Shown: piece after piece, positions 15,816 to 62,008 of the stretch
Layout of the letters: the number at the start of each line of letters is the position of its first letter
Position numbering within the stretch: the stretch's first letter is position 1
Assembly (NCBI GenBank): GCA_009903795.1
Contig: WYER01000002.1
Location: 1-62,920, forward strand
Length of the DNA: 62,920 nucleotides
Reading direction: 5' to 3'
Origin: Nitrososphaerota archaeon
Lineage (GTDB): Archaea; Thermoproteota; Nitrososphaeria; Conexivisphaerales; UBA164
Position numbers and translations under genes: made by a program
The notes under the pieces: model-generated
The model's database searches: none
Seen by the model: the letters and a program-made list of their open reading frames with translations, nothing else
What the model was told of the DNA's origin: nothing

Positions 15816-17738
15816 TTGGGTATAGAAGAGGGAAAGCTTTCATCGATTATATCAGAAATTTTTCAGAGGCTTCCTCCTGAATCTCAGGTAAGCAGGATAG
15901 AGTTTGAAGGGCCAAAGATAGCTCTGTACACAAAAAATTTAAAGTTCTTTATGCAAAATCCAACAGTAATACCAAGCATAGTCAGTGCTATAAAAAAGCA
16001 TGTCGTCGTAAAAGCTGACGAAAGCGAAAGAAAAGAAGAAGAGGAAGCCAGGGAGGAAATTTCAAGGCTTATACCGAAAGAAGCTGGGGTAAGCGGGATA
16101 ATATTTGACGGAATACAGGGCGAAATACTCATCGAAGTTAAAGATCCATCGCTTCTTGAAGGAGAAATAAAATCAAAGATAGACGAAGTTGCACAAGAAA
16201 TAGGCTGGAAGGTAAAGATAAGGAGGGTCATATATCATAACCCCCAGACTTACGAATTTTTGGTACATACTTTAAAGACAAACGAGGAAGAAAGGTTGTT
16301 TTTGCTCAGAGAAATAGGCAATAGGATATTCAGAGACAGAATAACATCGAAAAAAGATATAATGGTTACTTTCCTGGGAGGAGCCGACGAAGTTGGAAGG
16401 TCGTCGATCCTTGTAACAACGCCTGAGTCAAAGGTAATGCTTGACTGTGGAGTAAACTTAGGAGTTTCTTCAATTGCTGATATGTTCCCAAGGCTTGACC
16501 TGGTAAATCTATTGTTAGAAGACCTAGATGCTGTAGTGCTCTCGCACGCGCATCTAGATCACTCTGGTTTTGTACCAGTGTTGTTCAAATACGGATACGA
16601 AGGGCCAGTTTATTGCACAGAACCTACTCTTACCTTGACCACACTGCTTTTAACTGATGCGCTCAAGGTCGCTGAAGCTGAAGGAAAAAAGCTATACTAC
16701 GATATGTCTCACGTTAAAGAGTTTATAAAACATTGCATAACATTGCCATACAACTTCGTAACAGATATAGCTCCTGATGTAAAGCTAACTTTAACTAACG
16801 CAGGGCACATTTTAGGTTCTGCAACAATACACCTGCACATAGGTCAGGGCCTTTTCAACCTGGTTTATACTGGGGATTATAAGTTTGGCAAATCAAGGCT
16901 TTTCCAGCCTGCAAACTATATTTATCCAAGGGTAGAAGCCCTCATAACTGAATCCACATACGGAGGAAAAGAAGATATAATGCCTGCAAGAGAAGAAGCT
17001 GAGGAGAGGCTAATAAACTCCATAAACGAAACTGTTAATCAGGGCGGAAAAGTTCTAATACCGGTCCCTGCAGTAGGAAGAGCGCAAGAAATACTTCTTG
17101 TCCTGAATGATTATATAAGCCAAAAGAAGCTGAAAGAAGTTCCAATATATATAGAGGGAATGCTTACAGAAGCCACAAGCATACATCTCCTTTATCCAGA
17201 ATTTCTTAACAAAGAGATAAGGGATAAAATAATTTTCCAAGGAGAAAACCCATTTATAACAGAAAGGTATACGATAATAAGTCACCCTAAGGAGAGGGAG
17301 GAAGTTTTTGCAGGTGGGCCGTCTATAATAATCGCGACTTCAGGGATGCTTGAAGGAGGCCCATCAGTAGCTTATTTTTCTGAACTCAGCGAGGATCCCC
17401 GCAACAAGGTGATTTTTGTCTCATACCAAGTCTCTGGCACGATGGGGAGAAGAGTTCTTGACGGTTCAAAACAGATTAACATAATGGACTCTAACGGCAA
17501 AATAAGGGTCATAAACGTCAACCTTAAGGTTGAAAAAATAGATGGGTTCAGCGGTCACTCTGATTATAACCAGCTTTTAAATTACATATCAAAGTTCAAG
17601 AATAAGGTTCAAAAGATAATAGTGGTGCATGGTGAAGATACAAAAGCAAAAAACCTTAACGAATCCATAAACAGAATAGTATTTAGAAAAAACATATCTG
17701 AAGTCCCCAAAGTTGGAGAAACTATTAAATTATACTGA
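15816..17738 (+). CDS. aCPSF1/FttA, KH-beta-CASP ribonuclease and transcription terminator
   Basis: A 640-residue protein, the normal length for archaeal CPSF1. Two KH-type RNA-binding regions (about residues 1-70 and 75-145) precede a metallo-beta-lactamase core with SHAHLDHSG near residue 244, GHILGSA, YTGDYKFG, a beta-CASP domain (ATSGMLEGGPS) and a GFSGHSD end motif. It cuts pre-mRNA 3' ends and, in studied archaea, ends transcription (as FttA) by releasing RNA polymerase. The start is a TTG two bases past the proteasome stop codon, and NreA follows 18 bases downstream. A smaller paralogue, aCPSF2, is at 60761-62008. Confidence 0.94.
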   Translation: MGIEEGKLSSIISEIFQRLPPESQVSRIEFEGPKIALYTKNLKFFMQNPTVIPSIVSAIKKHVVVKADESERKEEEEAREEISRLIPKEAGVSGIIFDGIQGEILIEVKDPSLLEGEIKSKIDEVAQEIGWKVKIRRVIYHNPQTYEFLVHTLKTNEEERLFLLREIGNRIFRDRITSKKDIMVTFLGGADEVGRSSILVTTPESKVMLDCGVNLGVSSIADMFPRLDLVNLLLEDLDAVVLSHAHLDHSGFVPVLFKYGYEGPVYCTEPTLTLTTLLLTDALKVAEAEGKKLYYDMSHVKEFIKHCITLPYNFVTDIAPDVKLTLTNAGHILGSATIHLHIGQGLFNLVYTGDYKFGKSRLFQPANYIYPRVEALITESTYGGKEDIMPAREEAEERLINSINETVNQGGKVLIPVPAVGRAQEILLVLNDYISQKKLKEVPIYIEGMLTEATSIHLLYPEFLNKEIRDKIIFQGENPFITERYTIISHPKEREEVFAGGPSIIIATSGMLEGGPSVAYFSELSEDPRNKVIFVSYQVSGTMGRRVLDGSKQINIMDSNGKIRVINVNLKVEKIDGFSGHSDYNQLLNYISKFKNKVQKIIVVHGEDTKAKNLNESINRIVFRKNISEVPKVGETIKLY

Positions 17739-42238: not shown

Positions 42239-42601
42239 TTATCTTCTATTAGTTCCACAGCTTACTACTTTATTGTTCGAAAGCGTATAGCACGGCAAAC
42301 CAAGCTCACTTAATTTCCTCGCAAGTTCAAGGTCTAACGTAAAAACAGGATACCTAGTTTTTAAAGCAAGTTTTAAAATATCCTCGTCAGCATTTTTGTT
42401 AAGCTCTTCAAAACTTTCGATCCTTAGCAACTTGTAGTTTTTAATTATTTTCTTTTTATTGGAAAGTCTTTCAAGCTCAACTATGACAGATTTTGGCACG
42501 GTTATTTCAGGCATACCTATTTCATCTACTATACGCTCTAACACGTTACTTGGTTTTTCTAAAAGGTATATTATAAAGCTTGTATCGAATATGACCTTCA
42601 T
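42239..42601 (-). CDS. PIN-domain protein (archaeal COG1412 type)
   Basis: A 120-residue PIN domain. The acidic residues are D in VIFDTSFIIYLL, E in VIVELERL, D in NADEDILKLA and D in VFTLDLELARKL, which together would bind the metals for RNA cutting. I chose the ATG at 42601, which overlaps the aIF2 gamma stop codon by four bases (ATGA), over an upstream in-frame ATG inside that gene. In archaea this type of PIN protein often follows aIF2 gamma, and a role in rRNA or translation is more likely than a toxin. No antitoxin gene is adjacent. Confidence 0.88.
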   Translation of the reverse strand: MKVIFDTSFIIYLLEKPSNVLERIVDEIGMPEITVPKSVIVELERLSNKKKIIKNYKLLRIESFEELNKNADEDILKLALKTRYPVFTLDLELARKLSELGLPCYTLSNNKVVSCGTNRR

Positions 42602-44265
42602 ATAATAATTCCAGAACCAGCAAGGCGCCATCTGTCAGATACCATTCTGCTTAACGCTACCCTGTCACCGCGTAACGCGACAGCTGGTTTCTTCAGTTTT
42701 ATCCTCATAATATCTTTTGTAACTTCTTCCACAACTCCTAAGTTTGTCATTGTGCCTATGTTCAACCTTAAATTTTCTCCAGGTCTCAGCTTTTCATACC
42801 TTACCATTTCCTTCAAGCCTATTACGTATTCAAATAATTCATATTTTATAACGATTTCATTAACAGGGTCAGGCAAAAATCCTACCTTTGCTACGTAGTT
42901 TCCAACCATTACATCGTTTTTGGTAAATATCGGATCAAGCTTGGTACCTATTGCTATAAGTCCACCCGGCAGGACTTCATCTACAAGCCCACTTGAAGTA
43001 GATAAGCTAACCACCTCAGTAACTATTGGTTGATACGTACCCTTTACAGGTATGCCTGGTTTTATCTCTATCTTATCGCCAACCCTTAATTTTCCCTGTT
43101 TCAATGATCCGCCAAGTACTCCTCCTTTGAGGTCAGAAATTTTAGTGCCTGGTTTATTTATGTCAAAAGACCTCAAAACTTGCATGAGAGGTGGTGCGTT
43201 AGGATCTCTTGAAGGAGTAGGTATGTATTCTTCTATAGCTTGTAAAAGGGCGTCAATGTTCAGTTTTTTCTGGGCTGAAACCGGAATTATTGGTACCTGA
43301 TTATAGCCAAAGGAACTCAAAAACTCAACGATCTTGTTATAGTTATTCAAAGCCTGGTTATAAGTTACAAGGTCTACCTTGTTCTGAACAACAACGATGT
43401 TCTTGATTCCTATCATTTTAAGCGCCTGAAGGTGTTCCCTGGTCTGTGGCTGCGGTACGGGTTCATTTGCCGCTATTACTAGGAGAGAACCGTCCATGAG
43501 AGCCGCCCCGCTGAGCATTACTGACATCAAGCTTTCATGTCCTGGCGAGTCTATGAAACTTACAACCCGTCTCAGCTTGGCTTCTCCTTTTAGACAGTTG
43601 CCATCTGTGTTAAATTTTTCTGGTTCAGGAAGCTCAGGACATTCGTAAATAGCAGCATCGGCATATCCTATTTTGATCGTAATTCCCCTTTTGAGTTCTT
43701 CGCTGTGCATGCTCGTCCATTTGCCTGTAATTGCTTCAACCAGCGTTGTATTATGAGAGATTATACCGTGTGAAGAAATAAAATTATGGAAAAACGGTAC
43801 GCTTAAATCAAAAAGATAACCTTCATAATTTTTGGTTATATTTTTTACGACTTTATCTAGTATAAGCTTCTTCCCTTCATAAATTAATATCGATTCATCA
43901 GGTTTAATTGTCTGAGCTTTTTTCCAATGATCCTTTACAAGCAATTTATGTACAGGTGTTACGGATATGGATCTACCGGTTTCGGTTTCTATTGATATTA
44001 TCTTTCCTCTGTACTTCTGGAGATATACAAAACCACGGCTTTTTCTCAAATCTTTTCCGAAAAGAGAAACAGAAGACACAGGAAGCTCAAAAAGCTTTTC
44101 ATTATAAGCTTTTTTGAAATCATAACCTATGATTTCTTTTAATATTTCGCGTCCTGTGTAAAAAGTGTCTCCAATATACGCGCTTTCATCTAAAGTAAGG
44201 CACTTACCATGATCAACGTGACCTGCAGTACCTATGTTAACTTCTGGCTGTTTTGGAATTTTCAA
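42598..44265 (-). CDS. eif2g: Translation initiation factor aIF2 subunit gamma, with intein
   Basis: A 555-residue precursor of the GTPase that brings initiator tRNA to the small ribosomal subunit. The host protein of about 404 residues is complete: P-loop AGHVDHGK-TT (split by the intein after Lys21), GITIKIGYADA, DSPGHESLMS (G3), QNKVDLV (G4), PVSAQKK (G5), then domains II and III. The zinc knuckle, often four Cys, has only two here (YECPELPE and GNCL). The intein at residues 22-172 must splice out for GTP binding. The PIN gene follows with a four-base overlap. Confidence 0.95.
   Translation of the reverse strand: MKIPKQPEVNIGTAGHVDHGKCLTLDESAYIGDTFYTGREILKEIIGYDFKKAYNEKLFELPVSSVSLFGKDLRKSRGFVYLQKYRGKIISIETETGRSISVTPVHKLLVKDHWKKAQTIKPDESILIYEGKKLILDKVVKNITKNYEGYLFDLSVPFFHNFISSHGIISHNTTLVEAITGKWTSMHSEELKRGITIKIGYADAAIYECPELPEPEKFNTDGNCLKGEAKLRRVVSFIDSPGHESLMSVMLSGAALMDGSLLVIAANEPVPQPQTREHLQALKMIGIKNIVVVQNKVDLVTYNQALNNYNKIVEFLSSFGYNQVPIIPVSAQKKLNIDALLQAIEEYIPTPSRDPNAPPLMQVLRSFDINKPGTKISDLKGGVLGGSLKQGKLRVGDKIEIKPGIPVKGTYQPIVTEVVSLSTSSGLVDEVLPGGLIAIGTKLDPIFTKNDVMVGNYVAKVGFLPDPVNEIVIKYELFEYVIGLKEMVRYEKLRPGENLRLNIGTMTNLGVVEEVTKDIMRIKLKKPAVALRGDRVALSRMVSDRWRLAGSGIII
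43750..44202 (-). other. Mini-intein (151 residues) in the aIF2 gamma P-loop
   Basis: The intein begins with Cys (CLTLDESAY) after Lys21 of the P-loop and ends SHGIISHN before Thr173. Splicing blocks can be seen: block A with Cys1, block B VTPVHKLL (T-x-x-H at 82-85), block F YLFDLSVPFFHNFIS with its His at 139, and block G with His150-Asn151. The +1 residue is Thr. There is no room for a homing endonuclease, so it is a mini-intein of the class with Cys1. Removal restores GHVDHGKTTL. Confidence 0.93.
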
Positions 44266-47672: not shown

Positions 47673-48248
47673 TTGAAAATTTTAGCACTGCACGGTAAAG
47701 GCTCTGATCCAGTCAAAATAGCATGGTTAACTTCCTCGTTGAAGATTTTTGGAAATGTTGACGCTCCCTACGTTGATATAGAGGCTAGCGAGTTCCTCAA
47801 ATCTTACCTAAAGGCAGAATATGATATTGTGGCTGGACATTCAAGGGGAGGTACTTACGCATTGCTTTATTCTGCTTTTAAGGGCAAACCAGTAATAGCT
47901 ATTTCTTCCCCTTCTGACAGGTTAAAACAGTTAGAGTATTTAAAAGAGTTCCAAGCGGGTACAGTTCAAAAAAGGCTTTACGAAGATCTTCAAAAATTAC
48001 CAAAAGAGTACTTGGCTGAGACATCGCCAATTAATTATGCTGATAAGATCAAAAACGCGCTTTTAATTCATGGTAGTGAAGACGACATAGTGCCGGTACA
48101 GCAGAGCAAAGAACTATGCAAAAAGATAGTCGACTCAGGAGGGAAATGCTTGTTTTACGTTATAAAAATGAGACATTCGCCCCCAGCATCCCTCTATGAC
48201 GAAATACATAAAATTATAGAAAGCTGGGTGAGGAACAATGTCAGCTGA
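47673..48248 (+). CDS. Alpha/beta hydrolase
   Basis: A 191-residue alpha/beta hydrolase. The oxyanion stretch is ILALHGKGSDP at the start, the nucleophile Ser is in AGHSRGGTYAL near residue 63, the acid is likely in HGSEDDIVPVQQS near 141, and the catalytic His is in MRHSPPAS near 172. An in-frame TTG at 47613 would add 20 hydrophobic residues with no family match; I prefer the TTG at 47673, with an aattaaaag box 25-35 bases upstream. Substrate unknown. The next gene overlaps by 11 bases. Confidence 0.75.
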   Translation: MKILALHGKGSDPVKIAWLTSSLKIFGNVDAPYVDIEASEFLKSYLKAEYDIVAGHSRGGTYALLYSAFKGKPVIAISSPSDRLKQLEYLKEFQAGTVQKRLYEDLQKLPKEYLAETSPINYADKIKNALLIHGSEDDIVPVQQSKELCKKIVDSGGKCLFYVIKMRHSPPASLYDEIHKIIESWVRNNVS

Positions 48249-49395
48249 AAAGTACATAGACGATGCTTTAAAAGGAGAATATGGAGAAGCGGCAATGATA
48301 GCTGCTAAAATTTTAGTTGCTACAGGAAAAGCTTCAAGGTCAAAAGGGTTTATAAAAATATCCTCCGCGCATATATCAGGGATCAACTATCATAACATAG
48401 GCGACGCAGGCCTTGAACTTCTGAAAGACATTTCCAAAGTTGCCAGGTTTAGCGTTCCAACCTCTATAAATCCGTGCGGAGCTCCTGTTCTTGAAACTGA
48501 CAAAGCTTTCAGTAAAGAATTGGTTGAGAAACAGAAGGCTATCTACGATGCTTTTATTAAGATGGGCGCAAAAAATTCATGCACATGTGTGCCTTATGAA
48601 GGATTAAACGTGCCAAAAAGGGGGGAACACGTTAGCTGGGCAGAAAGCTCAGCTGTGGTCTACGGCAACTCGGTTTTAGGTATATACACCAACAAAGAAG
48701 GAGGGCTAAGCGCGCTCGCCTCAGCTATACTGGGCCTTACTCCCTACTACGGAATGCATGTGGATGAAAACAGGAAGCCTAAAAAGATAATACAGTTGCA
48801 TTTTCAGATAAACGGCAATATAAGATACGGAGCGCTGGGTTACTTTATAGGTAAATTTACAAAAGACATAGTAGGAATAATAGGGATAGCTTCAGCTAAA
48901 AAAGGGGAGCTTAAAGCGCTTTCAGCTTCAATAGGTACTTACGGTTCCCAGCCAATGTTTGTTATTGAACCACGTACTGATGAAGCAGAAATAGTGCCTT
49001 TAGAAAAAAACCAACTAGATGAAGCAGTTTCCGAGCTAAGTGATGAAGCGGAACCGCAAGCCATAATACTGGGTTGTCCTTTCTTATCTGCTGAAGAAGT
49101 GAAAATGCTTGCTGAGCTTGTCAGAGGAAAAAGGTTTGACATACCAACGTATTTGTTCATTGATAGGACTAGCTTTAACGAGCTGTCCCAGGAGGAAAAA
49201 GAAACATTGCATGCTTCAGGAGCAAAACTGTATTTTGACGTATGTCCTAGTTTATCGTATTTGCCAGAAACTTTTGGTTATACAAACGTCGTAAGCAACA
49301 GCGCAAAACACTATTTTTACACAAAGCATCAGTCAAACGTAAAAGTAAAGCTGATGGACATTGAAGAAATTGTTGACAAGCATGTAAAAAAATGA
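48238..49395 (+). CDS. Phosphomevalonate dehydratase large subunit (aconitase X)
   Basis: A 385-residue aconitase-X (formerly DUF521) protein. Family-typical stretches are GFIKISSAHISGINYHNIGDAG, SCTCVPYEGLNVP, GEHVSWAESSAVVYGNSVLG and GLTPYYGMHV. The Cys residues in SCTC and the later ILGCPFLS can hold the iron-sulphur cluster. In archaea with the modified mevalonate pathway, this protein and a small partner (DUF126) dehydrate 5-phosphomevalonate. The small partner is not in the window. The mevalonate kinase and isopentenyl phosphate kinase genes at 53061 and 54464 supply neighbouring steps. Confidence 0.9.
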   Translation: MSAEKYIDDALKGEYGEAAMIAAKILVATGKASRSKGFIKISSAHISGINYHNIGDAGLELLKDISKVARFSVPTSINPCGAPVLETDKAFSKELVEKQKAIYDAFIKMGAKNSCTCVPYEGLNVPKRGEHVSWAESSAVVYGNSVLGIYTNKEGGLSALASAILGLTPYYGMHVDENRKPKKIIQLHFQINGNIRYGALGYFIGKFTKDIVGIIGIASAKKGELKALSASIGTYGSQPMFVIEPRTDEAEIVPLEKNQLDEAVSELSDEAEPQAIILGCPFLSAEEVKMLAELVRGKRFDIPTYLFIDRTSFNELSQEEKETLHASGAKLYFDVCPSLSYLPETFGYTNVVSNSAKHYFYTKHQSNVKVKLMDIEEIVDKHVKK

Positions 49396-60240: not shown

Positions 60241-60768
60241 TCATTTAATTAATTCATTATATGCTTTTTTAAAATCTTCTTGGCAAGATTTGCACAACAT
60301 TGGTAGCTTTGTGTCAACATCCTTTAAACTTTTGGCATAGCTCATTATACATGTCTCATTTAAGCAGTGTCCCAGTCCCCAGAAATGGCCTATAAGGTGG
60401 GCAGCTTCTTTCATTATTCTTTCTTTTGCAAGCTTTGGATCGGAAATCAACCGATCTTCGCTTAGAATTGCTACCCTCTCTTTAGGATCTACTATACCGA
60501 AAATTCTTGAACCGGTTGAATCTACAATCGGCAAACCTGTTACGATAAGAACATAATGATGATTTTTTGGAATTATATCCTTTAACTGTTTAAGGATCTG
60601 GTCCCCATCATAAGTTTTTAAATTAACGTTGAATTCTACATCCTGATGATCCTTGATGCTCATGTTATAGAGGGATGCAGCTATCTTATAGCTTTCTAAA
60701 TACTTTGTTGTGTACCCGTTTAGGAAATAGAGGTCAATTTCAAGTTTGTTAATCTTTTTTTCACTCAA
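60241..60768 (-). CDS. Archaemetzincin-like protein, catalytic Glu missing
   Basis: A 175-residue archaemetzincin (AmzA). The typical signature is HExxHxxGxxH followed by four Cys for a second zinc. Here it reads AAHLIGHFWGLGHC near residue 120, so the Glu after the first His is Leu. The zinc-binding His residues and the Cys pattern (HCLNETCIM and MLCKSCQEDF) are kept, as is the Met turn (CIMSYAKS). It likely folds and binds metal but may not cleave peptides. It overlaps the aCPSF2 gene by eight bases. Confidence 0.85.
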   Translation of the reverse strand: MSEKKINKLEIDLYFLNGYTTKYLESYKIAASLYNMSIKDHQDVEFNVNLKTYDGDQILKQLKDIIPKNHHYVLIVTGLPIVDSTGSRIFGIVDPKERVAILSEDRLISDPKLAKERIMKEAAHLIGHFWGLGHCLNETCIMSYAKSLKDVDTKLPMLCKSCQEDFKKAYNELIK

Positions 60769-62008
60769 TTACTTCACCTGTCTTTGCACATGTAGCGTTA
60801 AACCCCATACTATTTAGCTCTAGCGCCAAAGCTTCACAGCTTTCTTGTTCACCGTGAACAAGGATTATTTTTGGAGAACCTTTGAGCGACTTGAACATCT
60901 GCAAAAGCTGAGACCTGCCAGAATGGCTTGACAGATCAAACTTGCCAACCTTGGCATTAACGCTATAATGGTTTCCGTTAAAGTTCAAAACGCCTTCTTC
61001 TAACAGTGATCTGCCAGGCGTTCCCTCAACTTGATACGCTACTATAGCTATGCCGTTCTTTTGGTCCTTTGAGATTTTTTTACTGTAAAATACTGAAGCG
61101 CCTCCCATAAGCATTCCAGCTGGAGAAATTATGACAGCCGGCTCTTTTACGATTTTTCTTCTTTCTTCCCATCCATTAACATAATTTAAGCGTCCTAGAG
61201 TTTTTCTTAAAAGTTCGGGGTCTCTTAAAAATTGTGGGTTGTTCAGAAGTATCTCATTTACAGTAAGAGCCATACCATCCATATAAACGTCGTGCTTAAA
61301 GTTATAAGAATAAAATATTTCGGCCAGCTCCTGTGCCCTCCCGACAGCAAAAGCTGGAACAAGAACCGTGCCACCGTCTTCTATTATTTCGTTAGAAAAA
61401 TCTATGAGCCTTTTTTCTTCTTGTTCCCTTTCAGGATGGTCTTGCATTGCATACGTGCATTCAGACACAACATAATCTACTTCTGGAAGATCATAAGATG
61501 CAGGTTTAAGTAACCTTGTCTGTATGTGGTTTATATCTCCAGTATACAGAACCCTCTTGCTTCCCTTAATGTAAACCATAGAGCTGCCAGGAATATGTCC
61601 TGCGTTCAAAAATTCAGCTTCAATTCCGTTTATACTAAAAGGTTCTTCATACTCTATTGCTTTGCTCATCTTAACAAGCTTTTTTACTTCTTGTTGAGTG
61701 AACGGAAGCTTATCGCCTGAAATGTTTAATAAATCATAAAGTAGAAGCTCCGTGAGCTCAATAGTGACCTTTGTAGCATAATGCGGAACGCTCCCATCTA
61801 TATAAAGATAAGGCTCGTATCCTATATGATCTAGATGTGCGTGAGTAGTTATCAACGCGGTTAAGTCTTTGGGCCTTACATGTAATGGATGGACTATGTT
61901 TTTTCCTGGATTTAGCCCATAATCTAAGAGTATAGTTGTGGAATCATCTTTTACTAAAATACCGGAATTGCCTATGTTTCCTCCAGCACCTAACACTTTT
62001 ATTTGCAT
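60761..62008 (-). CDS. aCPSF2-type beta-CASP ribonuclease
   Basis: A 415-residue beta-CASP metallo-beta-lactamase nuclease without KH domains. It has ITTHAHLDHIGYEPYL near residue 55, a NAGHIPGSSMVYI stretch, YTGDINH, the beta-CASP helix region with AGMLMGGASVFYSKK, and SSHSGRSQLLQM near the end. The family includes aCPSF2, an RNA-cutting enzyme with 5' exonuclease activity in some archaea. Length (about 420) and the missing KH region set it apart from aCPSF1 at 15816. It overlaps the archaemetzincin gene by eight bases. Confidence 0.9.
   Translation of the reverse strand: MQIKVLGAGGNIGNSGILVKDDSTTILLDYGLNPGKNIVHPLHVRPKDLTALITTHAHLDHIGYEPYLYIDGSVPHYATKVTIELTELLLYDLLNISGDKLPFTQQEVKKLVKMSKAIEYEEPFSINGIEAEFLNAGHIPGSSMVYIKGSKRVLYTGDINHIQTRLLKPASYDLPEVDYVVSECTYAMQDHPEREQEEKRLIDFSNEIIEDGGTVLVPAFAVGRAQELAEIFYSYNFKHDVYMDGMALTVNEILLNNPQFLRDPELLRKTLGRLNYVNGWEERRKIVKEPAVIISPAGMLMGGASVFYSKKISKDQKNGIAIVAYQVEGTPGRSLLEEGVLNFNGNHYSVNAKVGKFDLSSHSGRSQLLQMFKSLKGSPKIILVHGEQESCEALALELNSMGFNATCAKTGEVIE

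Follow-up and report, generated by a model that had tools for sequence, protein, structure and literature searches.

Clade-wide replacement of the catalytic Glu by Leu in an archaemetzincin of Nitrososphaerota archaea, a probable zinc-binding, non-cleaving protein

The window, that is, the whole stretch of 62,920 nucleotides of contig WYER01000002.1 from a Nitrososphaerota archaeon that was analysed here, carries an archaemetzincin-like gene at positions 60241-60768 of the minus strand, with the zinc motif HLIGHFWGLGHC. The gene was delimited as an ORF and assigned by PF07998 and by phmmer to solved structures. Its frame is open, starts with TTG and encodes 175 aa, and the protein scores 64.7 bits with PF07998 (Peptidase_M54), whose cut-off is 24.4, and is thereby placed in M54; the structures matched by phmmer (2x7m, 4axq, 3zvs and 3lmc) are all archaemetzincins. 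The motif that would be HExxH reads HLIGH in this protein. As seen in the sequence and its translation, AAHLIGHFWGLGHC (60364-60405, minus strand) comprises His124, Leu125 in the place of Glu, His128, His134 and Cys135, and a longer form of the motif, KEAAHLIGHFWGLGHC, spans 60364-60411 of the same strand. The codon at the position of the catalytic Glu, located by sequence and alignment, is CTT (60394-60396, minus strand). Translation and alignment also placed the Cys4 structural zinc site (Cys135, Cys140, Cys159 and Cys162, with Met142) at 60283-60366, minus strand. The protein therefore retains the three His, the four Cys and the Met-turn Met142, and presents the ligand and Met-turn pattern HxxxHxxGxxHC...C.M...C..C. 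These observations confirm what an earlier note on this DNA had described, namely the change of Glu to Leu, the conservation of the zinc His and of the Cys of the structural site, and an intact reading frame. The span of 60380-60460 given there covers the first part of the motif; the remainder of that span is upstream region, the motif itself being at 60364-60405.

Upstream of the archaemetzincin gene, and overlapping it by 8 bases, ORF and domain searches identified a gene for a beta-CASP ribonuclease of 415 aa (60761-62008, minus strand). Its product presents beta-CASP and RMMBL domains and no KH domains. Since a separate KH-bearing aCPSF1/FttA is encoded in the window at 15816-17738, the upstream gene is regarded as aCPSF2-like, and it has the domain composition of that group (beta-CASP and RMMBL, KH-less, beside a separate aCPSF1/FttA). 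The name aCPSF2, which we take to be the one in use for the KH-less beta-CASP group, is applied here to this gene. Other genes of the window can be mentioned as well. The aIF2-gamma gene (42598-44265, minus strand) contains an intein splicing domain, PF14890, at protein residues 83-172, preceding most of the GTPase domain, so that this translation initiation factor appears to contain an intein. An Aconitase X family protein (PF04412) is encoded at 48238-49395 (plus strand), amid other metabolic genes.

To place the Leu form (hereafter HL, as opposed to the HE form with Glu) among related genomes, the window protein was searched for in its own genome and in 40 related ones, and matches were obtained in 28 of these 41 genomes. 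Leu was found in all seven M54 proteins of three genera, g1 (G000, G001, G002 and G004), g3 (G006 and G009) and g4 (G007), and Glu in the three genomes of the sister genus g2; one further g1 genome, G003, which is 68% complete, gave no M54 match. Of the 11 genomes that make up the window's family, 10 had a single M54 match and none had two, and at the search threshold no active, Glu-containing M54 copy was found beside the HL copy in the HL genomes. In an alignment of 94 archaemetzincins, Glu occupied this position in 87/87 of the non-HL rows, and chance is excluded because of this invariance. A tree of 58 proteins, built with the Glu/Leu residue masked, separated the seven HL proteins from all others by a branch with support 100/99 and joined this group to g2 (96/88 for the pair), so that it requires one change of state from Glu to Leu; some end branches are long (1.0 for L007), and the branching order among the HL proteins is therefore less certain than their grouping. 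The partial frames L026 and L091 were left out of both the tree and the 94-row alignment. Taken together, the alignment and the tree demonstrate a clade-wide loss of Glu, with a single reconstructed origin in the common ancestor of the three genera. The question raised in the earlier note, whether an entire clade lacks the Glu, has thus been answered positively. The subfamily model for archaemetzincin peptidases, NCBIfam NF033823, gave the window protein 102.6 bits, under its cut-off of 145, and the Glu general base of HExxH that belongs to that subfamily is replaced by Leu in the seven HL copies.

A wider draw of 398 genomes from the phylum contained the HE form of the motif in 214 of them and a non-G codon at the Glu position in one, the window's own genome. 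The other six HL genomes fell outside this draw, and the non-G-codon pattern is blind to Asp, Ala, Val or Gly at the Glu position across the phylum. A scan of viral contigs for M54 gave no match. As for the lineage, archaeal AmoA was observed in 24/24 genomes of a family of the same class (f7) and in 0/20 of the window's order. The class is therefore the one to which ammonia-oxidising archaea belong, Nitrososphaeria, and the order may be Conexivisphaerales.

The arrangement with the beta-CASP gene was followed in a set of 60 loci, of which 30 come from the window and related genomes and the other 30 are the first-listed loci of the phylum. In 54 of the 60 (L001-L014, L017-L025, L029 and L062-L091), including 30/30 of the first-listed phylum loci, a beta-CASP gene lies immediately ahead of the archaemetzincin gene in the same orientation and often overlaps it. 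All seven HL loci present the pair, with overlaps of 4 to 20 bases when start codons are chosen mechanically, and the HxHxDH motif of the beta-CASP protein is intact in the seven HL genomes. When 36 loci belonging to other families of the phylum were sampled, the pair was present in just 5, one of them uncertain since its alignment stops 605 bases short of the frame, and the idea of a phylum-wide archaemetzincin/beta-CASP operon was consequently rejected. The pairing is clade-limited and is shared by HE and HL copies. Since HE copies have it too, the pairing is older than the loss of Glu, and being older than the loss and not phylum-wide, it does not explain the loss. In the genomes of genus g14 (L015, L016 and L030) there is also a second, Glu-containing archaemetzincin that does not adjoin a beta-CASP gene. 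No report of an archaemetzincin/CPSF gene pairing was found in a literature search that covered part of the available texts.

Other residues of the HL proteins have changed besides the Glu. Among the 87 HE proteins, 24 positions reach a conservation of 97% or more. HL copies retain 19 of these (in at least six of the seven), the seven zinc ligands and the Met among them, and alter five: Arg50, Gln52, Asp80, Glu125 and Phe144, of which the first two fall in a gappy region of uncertain alignment. Three further codons of the window gene, all on the minus strand, were located by alignment: Arg88 (60505-60507), Glu104 (60457-60459) and Tyr144 (60337-60339). Position 88 is Phe or Tyr in 87/87 HE copies and Arg in six HL copies and Asn in one; position 144 is Phe in 87/87 HE copies, and among HL copies five have Tyr there, one has His and one retains Phe. 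Glu is present at position 104 in the seven HL copies, and this position is never acidic in the 87 HE copies. Counting back from His117 in the phmmer alignment, the equivalents of positions 88, 104, 121 and 144 in AfAmzA are Phe80, Val96, Glu114 and Phe136. According to the structural study (PMC3427221), Phe80, in a segment at the edge of the bulge, and Phe136, which occupies the tyrosine-switch position, shift when malonate binds to the zinc, and Glu114 determines the depth of the S1' pocket. The g4 protein (G007, locus L007) is the exception: it keeps Phe144, the otherwise invariant Arg106 has become Ala, and Cys162, the fourth Cys of the structural zinc site, has become His.

These changes could be read as the signature of a different catalysis, the second option of the earlier note, in which the three-His zinc would still be catalytic, the base would be Glu104, Tyr/His144 or bulk water, and Arg88 would keep an anionic substrate in place. 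The presence of Glu104 in 7/7 HL copies against 0/87 HE copies, the Arg/Asn88 of all seven and the Tyr/His144 of six of them agree with it, as does the movement that PMC3427221 describes for the equivalent AfAmzA residues Phe80 and Phe136 on malonate binding to the zinc. In particular, the gain of Glu104 in every HL copy leaves room for a relocated base. However, the single-sequence structure prediction of the window protein (mean pLDDT 40.9) does not fix the placement of residue 104 relative to the zinc, and G007 has Leu125 and Glu104 and yet Phe144, so the set of changes is not all-or-none. We consider this alternative unlikely. An equally small chance is given to a bolder proposal, that the HL cleft has been turned into a Zn(His)3 site that includes Glu104, Arg88 and Tyr/His144, making it a sensor that binds anions or C-termini, or a non-peptidase zinc enzyme, which would take part in RNA turnover with the beta-CASP RNase of the same transcript.

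It is very improbable that Glu121, the Glu in KEAAH, serves as the base for some remaining peptidase activity. This residue is kept in the seven HL copies, but it is equally invariant in 87/87 HE copies, hence there was no recruitment, and the role described for its AfAmzA equivalent, Glu114, is to set how deep the S1' pocket is (PMC3427221). For this reason, its use as a substitute base was judged unlikely.

The loss of Glu might also have been the first step in the pseudogenisation of a decaying gene, and both the divergence of the protein (42% identity between G000 and G007) and the alteration of several family-invariant positions in HL copies could be seen in this way. Against this, the frames are open in 7/7 HL genomes and the zinc ligands are retained. 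Two of the six HL pairs had a measurable dS, the other four being saturated, and their dN/dS was 0.037 (L001/L002) and 0.057 (L005/L006), i.e., 0.04-0.06; for HE pairs it ranged from 0.027 to 0.325 (13 measurable of 15, two saturated). Furthermore, the two key residues have undergone synonymous changes: Leu is encoded by CTT in five HL genomes and by CTA in two, and Glu104 by GAA in four and by GAG in three. On the dN/dS values and the synonymous changes, gene decay was rejected as hardly credible; the gene is under strong purifying selection and not decaying. A sequencing or assembly error at the codon, finally, has practically no chance of being the explanation; nothing was found in its favour, and it was rejected, given that Leu occurs in seven genomes (also in G001, G002, G004, G006, G007 and G009) of three genera, encoded by CTT and CTA.

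The reading that we favour, and consider probable from these sequence comparisons, is that of a clade-wide peptidase-dead archaemetzincin, which would have lost its general base in the ancestor of the three genera and would have been retained as a zinc-binding protein used for binding. The earlier note had proposed a zinc-binding, non-cleaving protein as its first option, and this appears to be the best fit to the clade-wide loss of Glu, the conservation of the zinc ligands and the purifying selection. The importance of the Glu is illustrated by the active archaemetzincin AMZ-tk, where the E183Q mutant is described as having minimal activity. On the other hand, no activity was detected in assays of the crystallised, Glu-containing AfAmzA and MkAmzA either (PMC3427221), and therefore the activity of the ancestral enzyme is itself poorly known.

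A precedent for this way of working is CarG of Myxococcus xanthus. CarG is reported to have HQxxH, to contain two zincs, to lack protease activity and to play a regulatory role by binding CarD, the gene for which lies upstream and is translationally coupled. CarG (NF033824, Myxo_non_zincin) resembles the window protein in being archaemetzincin-like with the catalytic Glu replaced and the three His and four Cys kept, and in that its gene is coupled in translation behind that of a partner, as the window gene overlaps the upstream beta-CASP gene. They differ in that CarG has Gln where HL proteins have Leu, is bacterial and has CarD as its partner, and the HL form arose within the archaeal HE clade in a tree that did not include CarG. 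The window protein scored 72.1 bits with NF033824, whose equivalog cut-off is 250. It is thus not a CarG, but by analogy it fits the same way of working, in which a zinc-held fold binds and does not cut; as in CarG, the base is replaced and the zinc ligands are kept, with Leu instead of Gln. The structurally known AfAmzA (3zvs, 4axq, 4a3w) and MkAmzA (2x7m), of M54, share the sequence family, zinc ligands, Cys4 site and Met-turn; they carry the Glu, whereas the HL clade lacks it, as well as Phe144 (6/7) and the aromatic residue at 88 (7/7). Inactive ADAMs such as ADAM7 (HQLGH) and ADAM29 (HHLGH) are also metzincins that kept the zinc His and replaced the Glu (PMC11266112), although they belong to family M12 and are animal membrane proteins. 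No M54, archaemetzincin or CarG entry was found in the available part of that pseudopeptidase review, and a partial literature search on archaemetzincins and pseudoproteases returned no HL archaemetzincin.

How the protein would act can be outlined. The three-His zinc and the Cys4 zinc, to judge from their conserved ligands, would hold the fold, and the remodelled cleft (Leu125, Arg88 and Tyr/His144) may bind a ligand or another protein and leave it uncleaved. Like CarG, the protein could act through a partner encoded in the same transcript. The best candidate, and the weakest step of this proposal, would be the product of the overlapping beta-CASP RNase gene.

The HL clade can be seen as a natural experiment, in which a lineage gave up the catalytic Glu while selection maintained its zinc sites and the gene pairing. 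This suggests that part of the role of archaemetzincins does not depend on peptide cleavage, and the pairing with the beta-CASP gene offers a testable candidate partner and a possible clue to what that role may be.
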